DNA of 61,434 nucleotides, taken from the NCBI GenBank assembly GCA_015234045.1, contig JADFWU010000019.1:1-61434 (forward strand), read 5' to 3'. The stretch's first letter is position 1. Each line of letters opens with the position of its first letter. The translations under genes were made by a program, and so were the position numbers. Below are positions 26,141 through 52,619 of this stretch, in pieces. The notes beneath the pieces are model-generated. The model ran no database searches, had not been told where the DNA came from, and saw only the letters and a program-made list of their open reading frames with translations. The DNA is from Magnetococcales bacterium. GTDB taxonomy: Bacteria; Pseudomonadota; Magnetococcia; Magnetococcales; JADFWU01.

Positions 26141-27673
26141 ATGGATATGATAATTCCCAAAACAGCCAGATTTTTTAAAGCCTTTTGCCTGATGGCATTT
26201 CTATCACTGCTTTTACAAGGATGCACCAGCACTCCGTCTGAAATAAGGCAACGTGACACAGAGCAAAATCAGGCCAAACACCATTCAGCGACCAAAGAGC
26301 ACGGCATGGGCGGCACCGGAATGGTCGTCGCAGAACGCGGCATGGGCGGCACCGGAATGGTCGTTGCTGAACGCGGCATGGGTGGTACAGGTCGCTATCC
26401 TGGCGAACGCGGCATGGGCGGCACAGGCATAACGGCTTCCGCAGAACAAGGCATGGGTGGCACCGGCATCATCGGCACACTCACCCAATTTGGCAGTGTC
26501 TGGGTTAATGGCTTACATATTCATTATCAACCCGATACCGATATTGTGGAAGATGGCGCACCCGTTGATGTTAATCGTCTGCAATTAGGGCAATTGCTGG
26601 TGATCACAGCGGTTGAGCAACAGGGCAAACTGATGGCCGTCAACATGGCGATTCATCATGAAGTAATGGGCCCCGTCCAACAGGTTGATACAGCTCAGAA
26701 GAGAGTAACCATTCTGGGACAGCATGTAGATATTTCCAGCCTGTCAGACCAAACAGGAACACAAAAAATCAACCCAGGTCAGTGGCTGGCGGTTTCCGGT
26801 TTGCGGCACCCTTCCGGCACAATCATGGCTTCTCAGTTAGAAGAGATTGAAGCAGGCTCGCCCTTGCTGGTTCGGGGTGTGGTGGACACGATTTCAGAAG
26901 ATAAAATCGCTCTGGGTGACCTGTCAGTTCAACTGAGAAAAGAAGATCAGATCAGCGCTGAACCCGGAGACAGCATCATACTGAGAGGCGAGATGACTGG
27001 TGAGGATTTTTCTGTACACCATGTGCAAAAAGCACCAGCCCGTCCCTTTGGTGCTGATGTAACTCATTTTGTGGTACAGGGTTTTCGTTCATCCAAGTTA
27101 ACTGGAGCCATTCTGCATGCAGGTCCGATGACTCTGCCGTTGGATCAACAGTCATCAAAACCGGTATTCGATGATCAGCAAGGAGATGGTCAGCTGATGT
27201 GGCTCACAACCGATGGACAGGGCAAAGGCATTGTGCATGACGCACGGCCTTTGGACGCGACACACGCCCCACAAGCCGGGCAACCACCCACTTATATGCC
27301 CTTTTCGCCGCAGTTTCTACCACCTTCGCCCCCTCTTGAAGGCGGTACGATTCGGGAAGGTCTGCCACTGCCACCACCGCCTGAGCATGACCAATTACAG
27401 CGTGATTTTCCGCTACCGCTGTCACCACCAGAAGACATGGAGCGCCCAGAAAGAGGCCTGGAATTGAGAGATCGGGATATCCTGGTGCGACCACCTCGGA
27501 TTGAACGCCCCTCATTTAACGTAGACGAACGGTTAAGACCACCACCGCGCCCACCGTCTGACAGGCCGCCCAGACATAGACCACGATTGGATGATATGGA
27601 GCATCTTAGAGATCAATTGCCAACCCCTGGTAATCGTACCTCTCATCCTAACAGTATTGAGGTTTCAAGATGA
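26141..27673 (+). CDS. DUF5666-type lipoprotein with GMGGTG repeats
   Basis: This 510-residue lipoprotein has a signal ending in a lipobox, FLSLLLQGC (lipidated Cys). Five GMGGTG motifs separated by 5-9 residues follow. Next come tandem DUF5666-like OB-fold modules (FGSVWVNGLHIHYQPDTDI, QLGQLLVITAV, PGQWLAVSGLRHPSGTIMAS). The C-terminal about 150 residues are Pro/Arg-rich and disordered (PPSPPLEGG, RPPPRPPSDRPPRHRPR). It should be anchored at the outer or inner membrane, facing the periplasm. It overlaps the next gene by 4 bp. The role is unknown. Confidence 0.72.
   Translation: MDMIIPKTARFFKAFCLMAFLSLLLQGCTSTPSEIRQRDTEQNQAKHHSATKEHGMGGTGMVVAERGMGGTGMVVAERGMGGTGRYPGERGMGGTGITASAEQGMGGTGIIGTLTQFGSVWVNGLHIHYQPDTDIVEDGAPVDVNRLQLGQLLVITAVEQQGKLMAVNMAIHHEVMGPVQQVDTAQKRVTILGQHVDISSLSDQTGTQKINPGQWLAVSGLRHPSGTIMASQLEEIEAGSPLLVRGVVDTISEDKIALGDLSVQLRKEDQISAEPGDSIILRGEMTGEDFSVHHVQKAPARPFGADVTHFVVQGFRSSKLTGAILHAGPMTLPLDQQSSKPVFDDQQGDGQLMWLTTDGQGKGIVHDARPLDATHAPQAGQPPTYMPFSPQFLPPSPPLEGGTIREGLPLPPPPEHDQLQRDFPLPLSPPEDMERPERGLELRDRDILVRPPRIERPSFNVDERLRPPPRPPSDRPPRHRPRLDDMEHLRDQLPTPGNRTSHPNSIEVSR
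26300..26469 (+). repeat. Tandem GC-rich coding repeats for GMGGTG
   Basis: Five copies of a motif like GGCATGGGCGGCACCGG occur within 170 bp. The first two units (GGAATGGTCGT(C/T)GC(A/T)GAACGC) are nearly identical over 36 bp. They encode the GMGGTG repeats just after the lipobox and are likely to change in number by slippage. Confidence 0.75.
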
Positions 27674-28482: not shown

Positions 28483-28571
28483 ATATGGCCATTCGGCACG
28501 CAACGCACCGGGCGACAATTGCCGCTTTGTACCGGTGGTTTGAACCTTCGCATGGATACTCAACACATCCG

Positions 28572-29090
28572 ATGAACACGCACCTGATTTTTCACACATC
28601 CCAGCCCGTTGATCTTGCCATTCACATAACAGTGACCAAACGACTCCCCTTTGCCATCACTGACCTTTCCTGGCAACTATCCACTGAATCCAAACCAACA
28701 AAAATCACCGATCACCCGGCAATCCAATGGTTAAGTGCCTATTTCAAGCATCAGTTCCAACCCATTGACTTCCCGATCCAACCAGAAGGCACCCCCTTTC
28801 AAAAGCGCGTCTGGCAAGCGCTTATGGACATTCCATCTGGCACAACCCAAACCTATGGCACCGTGGCAAAGGCCCTGAACACCGCACCCCGCGCCATTGG
28901 TCATGCTGTTGGTGCCAATCCCATTCCGTTGATCATTCCCTGTCACCGTGTGGTCTCGGCTCAAGGCATTGGTGGATATAGTGCTACCGGTGGTGTTGAG
29001 ATTAAAAAACAGCTACTGGATTGGGAAACGTATAGTCATCTCGATCCGAAATTTGACAATGAATCACAACCTGAGTGGAAGCCCTGGTGA
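28572..29090 (+). CDS. ogt: Methylated-DNA--protein-cysteine methyltransferase, altered C-terminal tail
   Basis: This 172-residue suicide DNA repair protein removes O6-alkyl groups from guanine. It has the active-site motif PLIIPCHRVV with the acceptor Cys, the recognition helix TYGTVAKALNTAPRAIGHAVG and the end of the conserved domain GGVEIKKQLLDWETY. The last about 18 residues (SHLDPKFDNESQPEWKPW) and the stop are encoded by sequence that is about 92% identical to the left half of a MITE-like element at 52463-52619. The tail therefore comes from an insertion at the very end of the domain. The start is uncertain; the frame opens at an ATG at 28485, giving 29 more non-conserved residues. Confidence 0.88.
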   Translation: MNTHLIFHTSQPVDLAIHITVTKRLPFAITDLSWQLSTESKPTKITDHPAIQWLSAYFKHQFQPIDFPIQPEGTPFQKRVWQALMDIPSGTTQTYGTVAKALNTAPRAIGHAVGANPIPLIIPCHRVVSAQGIGGYSATGGVEIKKQLLDWETYSHLDPKFDNESQPEWKPW

Positions 29091-29110
29091 TGTTTTTGCG
29101 CCGCTTTTGA
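29033..29110. mobile_element. Left-half copy of a small MITE-like element, fused to ogt
   Basis: Compared base by base with 52463-52540, this 78-bp segment differs at 6 positions. It starts at the same terminal TAGT as the full element and stops at CGCTTTTGA, beyond which the two diverge. The right half with the second terminal repeat is missing and an intrinsic terminator follows 10 bp later. It supplies the last codons and the stop of ogt. Confidence 0.75.
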
Positions 29111-29120
29111 AAAACAATAA

Positions 29121-29159
29121 AAAAAAGCCCACCCGATCATAAACCGGGTGGGCTTTTTT
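29121..29159. terminator. Strong bidirectional terminator between ogt and rpmE
   Basis: AAAAAAGCCCACCCG (29121-29135) pairs perfectly with CGGGTGGGCTTTTTT (29145-29159) around a 9-nt loop, giving GC-rich stems with T-runs on both strands. It lies between the convergent ogt and rho-rpmE units and should terminate both. Confidence 0.93.
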
Positions 29160-45059: not shown

Positions 45060-48000
45060 ATGAGCGCCAAGAATACGCAAGATAAAAAGCGGACTCTGGA
45101 GCCAACCACTTTGATGATGAGCCTGGAATCCCGGCTTATGTTCGATGCCGCCGGATTAGTTGGCGGCATCGAAATGCATGATGCTTTTCAGGACGATCAA
45201 AGCCTGGATACCGGTTCAGATAACGGTGGTGATGATCTGGCCATCGCACTGGCCGGACTTGGCGCACCCGCCGCCGGGCGTGAAATCATATTTATCGACG
45301 CTTCGGTAGCCGATGCCGACACCTTGTTGGCTGATGTGTCTGAAGACACGGAAACCGTTATTCTTGACGGAAACGGTATCAGCCAAATCACCGATGCTCT
45401 GGCCGGACGCAGTGACATCACCGCCGTTCATATTGTCTCGCACGGTTCCGCCGGTGCCCTGGATTTGGGTGGCGATCTTCTGGACATGGAGAGCATTGGC
45501 ACACATGCCGATGATCTGGCCGCCTGGGGCGCAGCACTGGCCGATGGCGCTGATATTCTTTTCTATGGCTGTAACGTTGCCGAAGGTGCTGACGGTGCCG
45601 CGTTGATCGATGCGATCAGTGATCTGACCGGTGCAGATGTGGCCGCTTCCGATGACTTGACCGGTGATGCTGATCAAGGCGGTGACTGGGATCTGGAAGC
45701 CCAAACCGGACCGATAGACACCTACTCGGTTGTCAGCGTTCAAGCTGCCCGCTCTTATGAATCCCTGTTGGCTCTGCCCGTAGCGTCAAATGATGTCGCA
45801 TTCACTTCGGAAGACACAGCCGTAAACATCAACGTCACTGCCAATGACACCGATGCCGATGCCGACACCCTGTACATGGTCGAATGGGATGCCACCACCA
45901 CTGAGGGTGGTACGGTTTCCTACAACGGCAACGGCGTTTTTTCCTACACGCCACTGGCCAACTATAACCGTACCCTTGATCTGGCAGGCGCTCCTTATGA
46001 CGGAGATGGTACGGATGACTTTACCTATACCATTTTCGATGGTAACAGCGGTACAGCAAGCGCTACGGTGACAATCACCGTGGTGGCTGTCGCTGATCCG
46101 CCCATTGTTGCGGTCAAGTCCGTAGGCGGTTATGAAGATGGCGGCAACATTGATATTCTGGTATCCAGCCTGAGCATTACCGATACGGATGGTAACTCCA
46201 ATCCAACCGTATCCGGCGACATCCTCAGCCAACCCGCCACCGGGAATGGTACGGTTGCCTGGGACAACGGCAATTCAAAATTTGTCTGGTCTCCGCCTGT
46301 TGGCAACACTGAATACAGCGGCTCTCCGTCCTTTACCTACAAGGTCGCTTATGGTGCAGGGTCCAGCTATGTAACCGGTACAGTCAATCTGAGCATTGCT
46401 GCGGATAATGATGTGCCTGTGCTTGGCGCAATCGTCAACGGCACCATGGCCAGCGTTGCCGAAGATACCGCCAGCCCAGCAGGCACAACCGTGGAAACCC
46501 TGCTCTCAAACGGCGCTGGTGGCACCATTGTTACCGATCCTGATGCCGGTGCGGTTGAAGGTATCGCCGTAACAGGCATCACCGATACCAACGGCACTTG
46601 GCAATACACCCTCAACGGCGGCACAACCTGGACTGGCATTGATGCCACCGTGGAAGCCGCTTATCCCGGCCAAGATCCCAGTGACGGTAAAGCTGTTGTC
46701 CTTGCCAGCAATTCAGACACCAAAGTGCGTTTTGTTCCTGATGCCGGTTACAGTGGCACCAGCGGAAACATCACCATCCGTGCTTGGGATCAAAGCGATG
46801 GTGCCAGCCCAGGCGATGTGGTAGATACCACCGCCGCTCCCGCTCAAGGTGGGAAGGCATACAGCACCAACTCTGAAACCGCCAGCCTGACCGTTTCTGC
46901 GGATAACGATGCGCCCGTGATCACTTCCGGTGCCGCTCAAACTGTCGCTGAAGATGGCACACTCACCTTTGCTGCCAACTTCTTTGGCCTCGGTGATGAA
47001 GACGAAGCCACAGGCACGGCTGTCCTTGATCCAAACACCACCGGCTATGAAGCTGAAGTCACCATGACCGTGACTAATGGTCTGCTCACTCTTGGAGACA
47101 CCACAGGTCTCTCCTTTATCGGTGGCACTGCCAACGGTGAGGCAAGCCTTAATTTCACCGGCTCCATTGCAGCGATCAATACCGCGTTGATTCGCGCTGA
47201 CCATGACTACGATCCAACGGCGGACTACGATGGCTCCGACACGCTAACCATCACCGTTGAAGATACCGGCGTAACCGGCGATGCTACCGGCCTGACCGAT
47301 ACAGCAACCGTTGCCATCACAGTAACCGCAGCCAATGACGCACCAACCATCACATATACCGGTGGTGCTCAGACAGTCAACGAAGACACTGCATTCACCT
47401 TTACCGGTGGCGATGCCATCGTGTTTGCAGATCCTGATGCCAGCACCAGCAGCGTGCAGGTTGATCTGGTGGTTACTCAGGGTACGTTGACCTTGGGTGC
47501 AGGCAAAGGCGCGGGACTCACCATTCCTTCCGGCGGTAGTGGTACGGCGGCTTTGACCGTGCGCGGCACGATCAGCAACATCAACACCGCTCTGGACGGC
47601 CTCATCTATCAAGGTGATGCCGACTATACCGGTGCTGACACTCTGACTGTAACCATTGACGATTTGGGTAACAGTGGTGCAGGCGTATCCGAAACAGCCT
47701 CAACCACTGTCAGTATCACTGTCAGTGCGGTGAATGATGACCCTGTTCTAACTGATAAGACAGACACTTTTACCGAAGTTGGCATAGATACCACAGAGAC
47801 GATAACCGTTGTTGATGTGACCGATACCGATGGCGATGGTGATACGCTCTATCTGACCGGTGCCGTCACGGCATCCAGTGGTGCAACCATTACGATCAAC
47901 AATAATGGAACTGGTGGTAGTGCTATTGATGATACTGCCGTGGATTATGTCCAGGCGGCCGATTACTACGGCACCGACACCATCACCTACCATGTAACCG

Positions 48001-51000
48001 ATGGCACAAGCACAAGCACCGGTACGCTGACCATTACGGTCAACCCGGATCTGACCGCTGTTCCAGTGGTTGTTGCCGACACTGAGACCGTAAACGAAGA
48101 TGCTTCTGTCACCCGAATTGTGGTGGTAGATGATGACGGTCGCGTTGATCCGGCTGGCGCAACTGTTGTTATCACTGTAGCACCAGACAATGGCGGTACA
48201 GCCGTTGTTGATGCTACCGACAACAGCATCGACTACACACCAGCAGCCAACTTCTCCGGCACTGAAGTTCTGACCTATGAGTTGACCAACACAGCCAGTG
48301 GACTGACTGACACCGGCACGCTGACCATTACGGTCAATGCCGCCAATGATGCGCCCAGCGTTACAGTGCCAACGGCTCAATCTGTCCTTGAAGATACGCC
48401 TCTGAATATCACTGGCATATCACTGGCGGACGTTGACTCGGCATCCGGCAATATTCAGGTCACTCTGGAAGCCACCGCAGGCACGTTGATGGTGCCAAGC
48501 AACACCGGTGCGCTGACTCTGACATCCGGTGTCAATGATGGCACCAGCGCCGCGCTGACCTACTCCGGTACTCTGACCAATCTCAATACCGCCCTGGCGG
48601 CCATCACCTATCAGAGTGACAGCAACACCTACGGCACCGACACCATCACCATCACGGTGGATGATCTCGGCAATACCGGCGGTGGCGCTCTCACGGACAC
48701 GGCAACCATCTCTGTAACCGTTGCCGCCGTTGATGATGCACCAACCGGTGGTGAAGATTTGACCGGCTACACAGTTGCTGAGGATGCTTCACTTACCATT
48801 GATATCCTGGGTGATATCAACAGTGGCGCAGGCTATGTGGATAGTGTGGATGGTGATATCGGTGTCACGGTGGGCACACCTGTCATCACCGGCCCGGATA
48901 ACGGTTCTACCATCACAGTCAATGCCAATGGCTCAATCACCTACGAACCAGGGCTTGATTTCAGCGGTACCGAGGTCATTACCTACACCATCACCGATTC
49001 CGACTTCAGCACCAACACACCAGCAGCTTCGCCCAATACGGTAACCGTGACGGTAACGCCCTCCAATGATGCGCCAGTGGCCAGCAACGACACTGCCAGC
49101 ACCGATGAAGGCACGCTTGTCATCATTGATGCAAAGGCCAATGATTCGGATCCTGATGGCACCACACCGTTCATCCGCAGTTTTGACAGCTTATCGGTAT
49201 CCGGTGGCAGAGTCGCTCTGAATGGCCTTGGCAGGTTCTCCTATACACCGCCTTCGAACTTCAATGGCAATGACACGTTCACCTATGTGCTGTCCGATCT
49301 TTCAGGTGCTACGGATACCGCTACGGTAACCGTAACCATCAATGCCAATGTCGCGCCTACTGCGGACAATGAATCAGGAACCGTAGTCGAAGATGGCTCC
49401 ACCAGCGGCATTGATGTGCTCACCGGTGATTCTGACCCTGAAGGCGGTACGCTGACCATCACTGACTATGACGCTACATCCACATCCGGCGGTACAGTCA
49501 CATTTAACAGCAATGACAACACCTTCTCCTATGCGCCCGCAGCCAACTATAACGGCCTGGACACCTTTACATACACCATCTCAGATCCCGCCGGCGCAAC
49601 AGATACTGGTACGGTTACCTACACGGTAACAGCCGTCAACGATGCACCTATCGCTGAAAATGATACGGTTACCACCAACGAAGATGAAGCCAAATTGGTT
49701 GCTGTTTTGGCCAATGACTACGATACCGCTGATAGTGACACCAATCTCACTGTTTCTGGTTTCGATGACAGCGGACTGACCAAAGGCACCGTGCTCTACA
49801 ATGGTGATGGCACCTTCACCTATACACCATCCGCCAACGAATCCGGCACGGATGTTTTTAGCTATACCATGCGTGATACCGGTGGACTTACCGACACCGC
49901 ATCCGTCACGGTTACCATCCTCCAAGCCAATGATGCCCCGGTTGCCACTGCCGATGTGTTCGGTGACGGTATCGGAAACAGCGGTACGAATAACTACGTT
50001 GGCGATGGCACCGATGGCAACGATGATATCGATGAAGACACCGGCACAATCAATCTTAATGTGCTGCGTAATGACACCGATGTTGACGATGGTTCCAACC
50101 TGATGTTCATCCCGACCTTTACCTCGCCAGCCAACGGTACATTGGTCTACAAGATGGACAAAACCTTTGACTACACGCCCAATGATGACTTTGCCGGTAC
50201 CGATACCTTTACCTATACCCTGATGGATGGCTTGGGCGGCGTAAGCACGGGTACTGTTTCCATTGTCATTGATGACGTACCGGACAATCCGTCTGTAGGC
50301 AGCTTCTCAAAATCCAGCACTGAAGGAAGTGGTGCCCTTACTTTTGTGGCTACAAACTTCTCCAATAACTTCTCTGATGTGGATGGAAACGGCTCAATCA
50401 ATCTTGATTCCATCCGAATTGAGACACTGCCCTCGGTTTCTGATGGTGTTCTGAAACTCAGTGGTGTTGCGGTAACAGCCACAGATGTGTTGACCATTGC
50501 TGACATCGCCAACCTCACCTTTGTTCCAATCAATGCGGATTGGAGCGGCACATCCAGCTTCACATGGAACGGCTACGATGGCACCGACTGGTCAACCACA
50601 GCGGCAACAACAACCATCAGCTATTCGGCTGTCAACGACACACCAGTTGTCAATGTTCCCTCCGCACGGACCGTGATTGAAGAGAACACTCTGACAGTTC
50701 CCGCTATTTCCATCACTGATCCCGATGGCGGCACTGTTCAAGTGACGCTTAACGCCCTGCATGGTGATATCACCATCGGCACCACCACCAATCTGAACTT
50801 TGATCCGGTTAGCATCAACGGTGGTAGCACAGTTTCGTTTACCGGTGCTCTGACCGATGTCAATACCGCCCTTGGTACTGTCTCCTACGTAGGCGACAGT
50901 AACTTCTTCACCACGGTTAACACCGCAGAACGCATTCAGATAACTGTGAATGATCTGGCCAATGGTGGTGGCACAGCCCTTCAAGGCAGTGCATCCATCG

Positions 51001-52349
51001 CAATAACCGTCACCAATGCCATGGATGACCCTGTTGGCGGCAGCGATAGCTTCTCTGTTGAAGAGAACAGTGCCACCGGACTTTACATCACCCAAGCGGA
51101 ATTGATGTCCAATGATACGCTGGTAGAGACTGAAACCGGTTCGCTTTCCATCACTGGAAACACCTCTACCGGCAACGGTACACTCACCTATATGGCCGAC
51201 TATCAAGGCCTTGGTGCAGGTTATCTCTACGCACCCAATCAAGACTTCACCGGTACGGATACCTTCAACTACACCCTGGATGATACCAACGGCACCGATT
51301 CGGTAACCGTCACCATCTCGGTCAGTGCGGTGAACAGCGCACCGGTTCTCAACGGCGTTCCTGGTAATGCTCAAGAGGTCTATGCTGATCAGGATCTGAT
51401 CATCTCCGGTGTTTCTGTTCTGGATGTGGACATCGGCAACGGTGACATGCAGGTCAGCCTGAGTGCTGCCAACGGTAATATCTCACTGAATCAAACTTTG
51501 GGACTGACCAAAATCTCCGGTGACAATGGCTCCAGTACGATGGAATATCAGGGTTCTCAGACCGCCATCAACAATGCGCTGAGCTCCCTCACCTATAGTC
51601 CAACAGCTGCTTCCGGCGATGACACCATTACCATTCAGGTTAACGATCTGGGCGGCACCGGTGCTGGTGGCGAGAAGACTGATGTGGAATCCATTTCGGT
51701 CTCCATCCGTGAAGTGAACTCTGATCCAGTACCTGTCGTGGATGTCTTCTACGTGCCAACAGGGTCTACAGCTGGCTACATCCTGCTGACGACTGATGTC
51801 ACCGAAAACGATACCGATGCCAACTCGGCAACACTCTACGTCGCCTCCTTCACCCAACCGGATGCCGGTCGGGCCAGTGGCTCAACCGTAGACTATGCGG
51901 GTAGTGGTCAGTTCCGTTACACCCTCGGTGGCACATTCACCGACTACGACTTCTTCACCTACAGCGTGAATGATGGTGAAGGCTCCTTCATCCCATCCAC
52001 GATCTATATCCTGGATGAAGGCCAAACCCTCCAAGGCTTGGGCTTGAGTGCAGAGTTGGAAGAAGAAGAAGTTGAAGGCGGTGTCATGATGGCCGCAGCC
52101 GAAGTGGATAGCATTGATCAGGAGATGGCCGCACGCATCGTTGCTGATGCTGAAACCGAAATCCCAGTCAATGAGGGCATCCAGGTTGCCAACTTGGAAC
52201 CCACCTCACTGGAAGCACTTTTTGCCACCAACCTGCACCAGAAAATGGACCGCATTGGTGATGCTTTTGAATCAGGACGCCAGGAGATTTTGAGCGCCCT
52301 GGGCACGGGCTTTGCCCCTGTCGAGAAACAGCCGGTCTTGAAGGCCTAA
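45060..52349 (+). CDS. Giant modular protein: LEPR-type N-terminus, DUF4347, cadherin/Ig-like repeats
   Basis: This 2429-residue protein has the N-terminal motif LESRLMFDAAGL (LEPR-type export/targeting region of large surface proteins). A DUF4347 domain follows at about residues 76-225 (EIIFIDASVADADTLL, VHIVSHGSAGALDLGG, ILFYGCNVAEG). Then come roughly 18 tandem modules of 85-110 residues with boundaries like AVNDAPVA, ANDAPT and VNEDT, and calcium-binding Asp-rich loops (DTDADADTL) as in cadherin-like and CSPG repeats. No Sec signal, transmembrane anchor or RTX nonapeptide array is seen. The C-terminus is acidic and helical (LEPTSLEALFATNLHQ). Surface adhesion or matrix formation is the likely role; the export route is unresolved. 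An intrinsic terminator follows. Confidence 0.85.
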   Translation: MSAKNTQDKKRTLEPTTLMMSLESRLMFDAAGLVGGIEMHDAFQDDQSLDTGSDNGGDDLAIALAGLGAPAAGREIIFIDASVADADTLLADVSEDTETVILDGNGISQITDALAGRSDITAVHIVSHGSAGALDLGGDLLDMESIGTHADDLAAWGAALADGADILFYGCNVAEGADGAALIDAISDLTGADVAASDDLTGDADQGGDWDLEAQTGPIDTYSVVSVQAARSYESLLALPVASNDVAFTSEDTAVNINVTANDTDADADTLYMVEWDATTTEGGTVSYNGNGVFSYTPLANYNRTLDLAGAPYDGDGTDDFTYTIFDGNSGTASATVTITVVAVADPPIVAVKSVGGYEDGGNIDILVSSLSITDTDGNSNPTVSGDILSQPATGNGTVAWDNGNSKFVWSPPVGNTEYSGSPSFTYKVAYGAGSSYVTGTVNLSIAADNDVPVLGAIVNGTMASVAEDTASPAGTTVETLLSNGAGGTIVTDPDAGAVEGIAVTGITDTNGTWQYTLNGGTTWTGIDATVEAAYPGQDPSDGKAVVLASNSDTKVRFVPDAGYSGTSGNITIRAWDQSDGASPGDVVDTTAAPAQGGKAYSTNSETASLTVSADNDAPVITSGAAQTVAEDGTLTFAANFFGLGDEDEATGTAVLDPNTTGYEAEVTMTVTNGLLTLGDTTGLSFIGGTANGEASLNFTGSIAAINTALIRADHDYDPTADYDGSDTLTITVEDTGVTGDATGLTDTATVAITVTAANDAPTITYTGGAQTVNEDTAFTFTGGDAIVFADPDASTSSVQVDLVVTQGTLTLGAGKGAGLTIPSGGSGTAALTVRGTISNINTALDGLIYQGDADYTGADTLTVTIDDLGNSGAGVSETASTTVSITVSAVNDDPVLTDKTDTFTEVGIDTTETITVVDVTDTDGDGDTLYLTGAVTASSGATITINNNGTGGSAIDDTAVDYVQAADYYGTDTITYHVTDGTSTSTGTLTITVNPDLTAVPVVVADTETVNEDASVTRIVVVDDDGRVDPAGATVVITVAPDNGGTAVVDATDNSIDYTPAANFSGTEVLTYELTNTASGLTDTGTLTITVNAANDAPSVTVPTAQSVLEDTPLNITGISLADVDSASGNIQVTLEATAGTLMVPSNTGALTLTSGVNDGTSAALTYSGTLTNLNTALAAITYQSDSNTYGTDTITITVDDLGNTGGGALTDTATISVTVAAVDDAPTGGEDLTGYTVAEDASLTIDILGDINSGAGYVDSVDGDIGVTVGTPVITGPDNGSTITVNANGSITYEPGLDFSGTEVITYTITDSDFSTNTPAASPNTVTVTVTPSNDAPVASNDTASTDEGTLVIIDAKANDSDPDGTTPFIRSFDSLSVSGGRVALNGLGRFSYTPPSNFNGNDTFTYVLSDLSGATDTATVTVTINANVAPTADNESGTVVEDGSTSGIDVLTGDSDPEGGTLTITDYDATSTSGGTVTFNSNDNTFSYAPAANYNGLDTFTYTISDPAGATDTGTVTYTVTAVNDAPIAENDTVTTNEDEAKLVAVLANDYDTADSDTNLTVSGFDDSGLTKGTVLYNGDGTFTYTPSANESGTDVFSYTMRDTGGLTDTASVTVTILQANDAPVATADVFGDGIGNSGTNNYVGDGTDGNDDIDEDTGTINLNVLRNDTDVDDGSNLMFIPTFTSPANGTLVYKMDKTFDYTPNDDFAGTDTFTYTLMDGLGGVSTGTVSIVIDDVPDNPSVGSFSKSSTEGSGALTFVATNFSNNFSDVDGNGSINLDSIRIETLPSVSDGVLKLSGVAVTATDVLTIADIANLTFVPINADWSGTSSFTWNGYDGTDWSTTAATTTISYSAVNDTPVVNVPSARTVIEENTLTVPAISITDPDGGTVQVTLNALHGDITIGTTTNLNFDPVSINGGSTVSFTGALTDVNTALGTVSYVGDSNFFTTVNTAERIQITVNDLANGGGTALQGSASIAITVTNAMDDPVGGSDSFSVEENSATGLYITQAELMSNDTLVETETGSLSITGNTSTGNGTLTYMADYQGLGAGYLYAPNQDFTGTDTFNYTLDDTNGTDSVTVTISVSAVNSAPVLNGVPGNAQEVYADQDLIISGVSVLDVDIGNGDMQVSLSAANGNISLNQTLGLTKISGDNGSSTMEYQGSQTAINNALSSLTYSPTAASGDDTITIQVNDLGGTGAGGEKTDVESISVSIREVNSDPVPVVDVFYVPTGSTAGYILLTTDVTENDTDANSATLYVASFTQPDAGRASGSTVDYAGSGQFRYTLGGTFTDYDFFTYSVNDGEGSFIPSTIYILDEGQTLQGLGLSAELEEEEVEGGVMMAAAEVDSIDQEMAARIVADAETEIPVNEGIQVANLEPTSLEALFATNLHQKMDRIGDAFESGRQEILSALGTGFAPVEKQPVLKA

Positions 52350-52462: not shown

Positions 52463-52619
52463 TAGTGATTTCGATCCGAAATCAGACAATAAATCACAAC
52501 CTGAGTGGAAGTCCTGGTGATGTTTTTGCGCCGCTTTTGATATGCGAAGCAGATCATCAGACCAAAAACATCACCAGGGCTGGAACGGCTGACTGTTCAA
52601 ATTTTAGACGAAATCACTA
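52463..52619. mobile_element. 157-bp MITE-like element with terminal inverted repeats
   Basis: The ends TAGTGATTTCG (52463-52473) and CGAAATCACTA (52609-52619) are perfect 11-bp inverted repeats. They begin and end with TA, as expected if a 9-bp repeat is flanked by a TA target duplication, as in IS630/Tc1-type elements. Inside is a perfect 16-bp hairpin arm pair, CCTGGTGATGTTTTTG (52513-52528) and CAAAAACATCACCAGG (52563-52578). No coding capacity. A half copy, 92% identical over 78 bp, makes the end of ogt at 29033-29110. It lies in the 373-bp non-coding stretch 52350-52722, which otherwise holds only the terminator and the promoter region of the next gene. Confidence 0.72.

Follow-up and report, generated by a model that had tools for sequence, protein, structure and literature searches.

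The ogt locus

The window analysed here, meaning the whole 61,434-nucleotide stretch from a Magnetococcales bacterium, carries an ogt gene that is convergent with rpmE, with an intrinsic terminator between the two, and, further along, an intergenic full-length copy of a 157-bp repeat (Table 1). An internal ATG of ogt, at 28572, corresponds approximately to the usual start in most ogt relatives. The PCHR motif and the MGMT domain of the protein are both intact, and the end of the domain is placed at residue 182 by Pfam PF01035 and at residue 181 by TIGR00589 (residues 103–181), so that the conserved part stops at 29030, in the codon before a TA-TAGT junction; this agrees with the original prediction, according to which the domain ends just where the repeat begins. 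Among the neighbours are a predicted lipoprotein-like protein (26141–27673), in which RGMGGTG / ERGMGGTGMVVA motifs recur close to the N-terminus, and a protein of 2429 residues (45060–52349) made up largely of repeated cadherin-like segments, past the stop of which, at a distance of about 110 bp, lies the full copy of the repeat.

Table 1. Features of the window that bear on the 3′ end of ogt
Feature	Position	Strand	Basis or remark
ogt, methylated-DNA–protein-cysteine methyltransferase	28485–29090	+	open frame, 201 aa counted from the first ATG
MGMT DNA-binding/catalytic domain, conserved	28794–29030	+	PF01035, residues 104–182
TA adjoining the element end, putative target site	29031–29032		TA before 52 of 67 scored copies
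MITE left half	29033–29110	+	source of the ogt tail (Y)SHLDPKFDNESQPEWKPW and of its TGA stop, 29088–29090
Intrinsic terminator between ogt and rpmE	29121–29159		18-pair hairpin, about 10 bp past the half-element
Full-length 157-bp MITE copy, intergenic	52463–52619	+	alignment, terminal repeats, folding

The 3′ end of ogt and the repeat

It had been claimed that the last 18 or so codons of ogt, its stop, and 20 bp more match the left half of the full copy, starting exactly at its terminal TAGT, and both parts of this are confirmed by an ungapped alignment of 29033–29110 with 52463–52540, which begins at that TAGT and shows 6 differences in 78 bp, with the similarity breaking off beyond 29110–29112. 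Eighteen codons and the stop lie wholly within the element, while the 19th codon, TAT (29031–29033), spans the junction; the C-terminus from the junction on reads YSHLDPKFDNESQPEWKPW, followed by TGA and then by the 20 further element-matching bases. Against a genomic copy on another contig (C22:20521; contigs of the assembly are cited by C numbers), the half-element shows 99% identity over 76 bp, with 1 mismatch. The core TCACAACCTGAGTGGAAG, allowing up to 3 mismatches, occurs twice as compared with 0.04 occurrences expected per shuffled window, which excludes a chance match. As is expected of a MITE-derived C-terminus, the domain is complete, the extension is element-derived and in frame, and the stop lies within the element. 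Judged from the sequence, half of a small, abundant mobile element has supplied ogt with its stop codon and its 19 C-terminal amino acids.

The element family

The full copy in the window has the features of a MITE, being short (below the customary limit of about 400 bp), non-coding, present in many copies, and bounded by 11-bp perfect terminal inverted repeats, with TAGTGATTTCG at both ends and similar ends in other copies; as RNA, it adopts a long hairpin structure (−61 kcal/mol, z −7.55). A genome-wide search, undertaken to find out whether further copies exist, located them throughout the assembly at about 100 occurrences: 99 for a 30-nt core from the left half (up to 3 mismatches; none for the reversed control) and 98 for a 36-nt core from the right half (up to 3 mismatches; none for the control). 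A profile search of the stretches fetched around these pattern matches in the 3.65-Mb genome yielded 169 segments, 71 of them of full length, a census that rests on the two core patterns; these counts are minima because several contigs begin or end within copies. Contigs that start in the element include C29:1-75, C116:1-75, C27:1-75, C59:1-114, C77:1-76, and C93:1-137, with several contig ends behaving likewise, and it is probably the repeat itself that fragments the assembly, such that its copies are undercounted.

Variant arrangements occur as well. Twelve loci keep both ends and have lost the center, most of them being about 80 bp long, and this form shares the same central deletion (approximately positions 40–110) at a dozen loci, such as C63:3756-3836, C103:6603-6683, C110:5583-5662, and C47:9808-9888; it looks like a separate subfamily that has spread. 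Tandem arrays of five head-to-tail copies with a 161-bp period (C29:108823-109623) and of two copies (C47:11542-11856), in both cases with near-identical junctions, suggest local duplication rather than repeated insertion, and tandem 60-bp partial units adjoin a full copy at C29:68310-68427.

The copies read TA-TAGTG...CACTA-TA, with the left TA present in 52 and the right ATA in 46 of the 67 scored copies and with little agreement further out, which, within this one genome, indicates a duplicated TA target. Targets of this kind are typical of the IS630/Tc1-mariner group. One recognizable remnant of an IS630-type transposase (DDE_3, PF13358) is located at C90:6706-7008, broken by one TGA, and the sequence just after it, read inward, starts with TATAGTCATTTCTAATC. 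Compared with the left end of the MITE, this end, the only one found for the remnant, is identical at 13 positions out of 14 and 22 out of 28; with the right end it shares 20 out of 28, and 2 million positions of shuffled DNA contained no match this good. Since a decayed IS630-family transposase shares nearly the same end (13 of the first 14 bases), the element is best read as an IS630/Tc1-mariner-type MITE with a decayed parent. No copy was detected in 60 other genomes of the same order or phylum, all from outside the family, or by an exact core search of named species genomes and viral contigs, collections that may omit the source genome itself, and Rfam recognized no known RNA in the window; the family appears to be undescribed in the searchable literature and collections.

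The element as the donor

The opposite direction of transfer, in which the 3′ end of ogt would be the source and the left half of the mobile element would derive from it, draws on the fact that ogt reads the shared stretch in frame, which would also hold for a native C-terminus. However, the match sets in with the terminal inverted repeat of the element itself and runs 20 bp past the stop, about 100 copies share the stretch together with matching right halves, and the tail is found in no ogt relative seen, which makes this origin extremely improbable. Several Magnetococcales bins are among the named relatives of ogt. In the same order, 28 ogt proteins end within about 25 residues of the LLxxE motif with sequences unrelated to the tail, and the 78 further relatives from named genomes have equally unrelated tails of 2–33 residues (median 9); the element-encoded tail was thus seen in none of these 28 and 78 proteins, all from outside the genus and family. 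Relatives with the same tail and no element, which would point to ogt as the source, were sought among them, and the unrelated tails found instead leave the reading of the original prediction unrefuted. With some 100 copies elsewhere, a match that starts at the element's end, and relatives devoid of the tail, the comparison of sequences identifies the element as the one that gave sequence to ogt, and not the reverse; the capture of a mobile element as a protein tail, as first proposed, is therefore supported by its many copies, by the domain boundary, and by the tail-free relatives.

Probable insertion, read-in, and loss of the right half

In the model that we consider very probable as a whole, a 157-bp IS630/Tc1-mariner-type MITE would have entered a TA at, or a few codons from, the original ogt stop, just past the conserved domain, following which ribosomes would read 19 codons of the element, its left end being open in the ogt frame, and halt at the internal TGA. 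The right half, together with the long hairpin, would have been deleted later, which would have brought the left half up against the native terminator. Consistent with that, when the TA within a TAA or TAG stop is the entry point, the frame continues as TAT AGT..., which is the frame of ogt; of the 99 left ends, 79 keep this frame open for 19 codons or more, and 69 have a stop right after codon 19. We infer that the element came in by transposition, that it did so no more than a few codons from the original stop, and that the loss of the right half followed the insertion; entry into the stop itself and entry a few codons ahead of it are equally possible.

Both the right half and the right flank of the insertion are absent at ogt. 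The original prediction, that the other half of the element is missing before a strong terminator, holds in that the terminator is found in place (Table 1), the loss as an event being our interpretation. Truncated copies with breakpoints in the middle of the element are frequent, with either side missing, so that the loss at ogt calls for no special process. An apparent bias toward loss of the right half was traced to sampling with the left-half core and was discarded, as copies that have lost the left half proved frequent as well once the right-half core was added. A copy without its right part also stands directly before a terminator-like hairpin at C95:69923-70026, in the same manner as at ogt.

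A distinctly unlikely alternative is that a half-element that already existed arrived by recombination or duplication, with no later loss of a right half. Partial copies do exist, one of which (C100:2430) ends at position 77, and partial units of 60 bp adjoin full copies, as this alternative would have it, but the left join at ogt falls exactly at the element end after a TA, as in full insertions, and one-ended transposition is unusual for such elements.

Activity of the extended protein and role of the tail

With the PCHR motif and the domain intact, the activity of Ogt was probably kept, and the extended protein is most likely still active. The tail itself is probably neutral. An AlphaFold model built with 39 sequences shows a confident domain core and a tail in which the pLDDT falls from about 55 to 46. 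A search across the copies for coding constraint on the open frame of the element found none, the substitutions being spread about evenly over the codon positions when four subfamily-defining sites are set aside. It has to be noted that the copy at ogt differs by 1 base in 76 from its nearest genomic copy, and hence there has been little time for it to change.

Selection of the tail for the stability or activity of Ogt, with the loss of the distal arm favored as the full hairpin would bury the stop codon in its stem, would account for an intact frame and for a missing right half, the absence of which takes the TGA out of the long stem. It is nevertheless very unlikely, given that a tail about one base away from an ordinary genomic copy shows no visible refinement, that without the four subfamily-defining sites no clear codon-position pattern is left, that the tail is modeled with such low confidence, and that truncation is common among the copies elsewhere.

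Comparison with known systems

Both the type of element and the type of event are already known, the mechanism is ordinary for MITEs, and the process has been published for RU-1 and QMITE2. At the end of the amidase gene ECA3499 of Erwinia carotovora, the ERIC-like repeat RU-1 removed the normal stop and extended the protein past its domain (Delihas 2007, PMC2759123). As at ogt, the 3′ end of the housekeeping gene is occupied by a MITE-like repeat, which adds residues beyond the domain; the element is a different one, however, and the downstream part of the repeat was kept there, whereas the distal half has been lost here. In Coxiella burnetii, QMITE insertions in annotated functional genes are at 3′ ends (Wachter et al. 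2018, PMC5896051), QMITE2 presumably supplying the C-terminal 33 residues of EnhC in the Dugway strain and overlapping the Coxiella ogt by 8 bp (PMC5896051). QMITE1 and QMITE2 resemble the present element in inserting at gene 3′ ends, a likeness by description only, while the organism is unrelated, the tail provided by QMITE2 belongs to another gene, and its overlap with ogt amounts to 8 bp as opposed to 18 codons and a stop.

The 107-bp RUP of Streptococcus pneumoniae, present in about 100 copies at TA targets, is presumed to be mobilized by an IS630-family transposase that recognizes ends common to both (PMC2229807). RUP/IS630-Spn1 is similar to the MITE described here in copy number (about 100) and in its TA targets and differs from it in that RUP has stops in all six frames, whereas one frame of the MITE's left end is open for 19 codons. 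The palindromic elements of Rickettsia (RPE) are comparable to the ogt tail as palindromic repeats that are translated in frame within host proteins; they are often in frame inside genes, whereas here the in-frame use is rare and confined to the extreme 3′ end. Against this background, ogt provides a well-resolved case of a C-terminus and stop codon made by a MITE in a DNA-repair enzyme, with little sequence change since the event, and it supports the view that protein ends tolerate the insertion of MITEs.

Other genes that end in copies

Depending on the reading frame, the left end of the element offers the TAG stop at its tip, short tails, or the 19-residue tail with its own stop, the last of these being the frame that results when the TA within a TAA or TAG stop is the target. 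In the sequence upstream of 229 element ends, those with enough of it, there are 15 open frames of 177 codons or more that either enter a copy or terminate at it. Most of these stop at the tip TAG or within one residue of it, a few gain short tails such as YSGFV or IVVSVQN, and the longest element-derived tail is that of ogt. The genes ending at copies that were tested against Pfam are real ones, encoding a GGDEF response regulator, a pseudouridine synthase, a sulfotransferase, an OmpR-type regulator, and an ATP-synthase-type ATPase, which we take for FliI; when the flanks were rejoined in silico, several of the insertions turned out to cost only 0–12 residues. That the family as such is suited to 3′ ends, spreading there with little harm and repeatedly making C-termini, and that at ogt the loss of the distal arm was favored because the hairpin would have buried the stop, appears unlikely. 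With about a dozen genes besides ogt that end at or in a copy, this genome-wide family allows the creation of C-termini to be studied; such gene ends are located at C84:37318, C22:12874, C49:19766, C91:1931, and C103:2142, among others.
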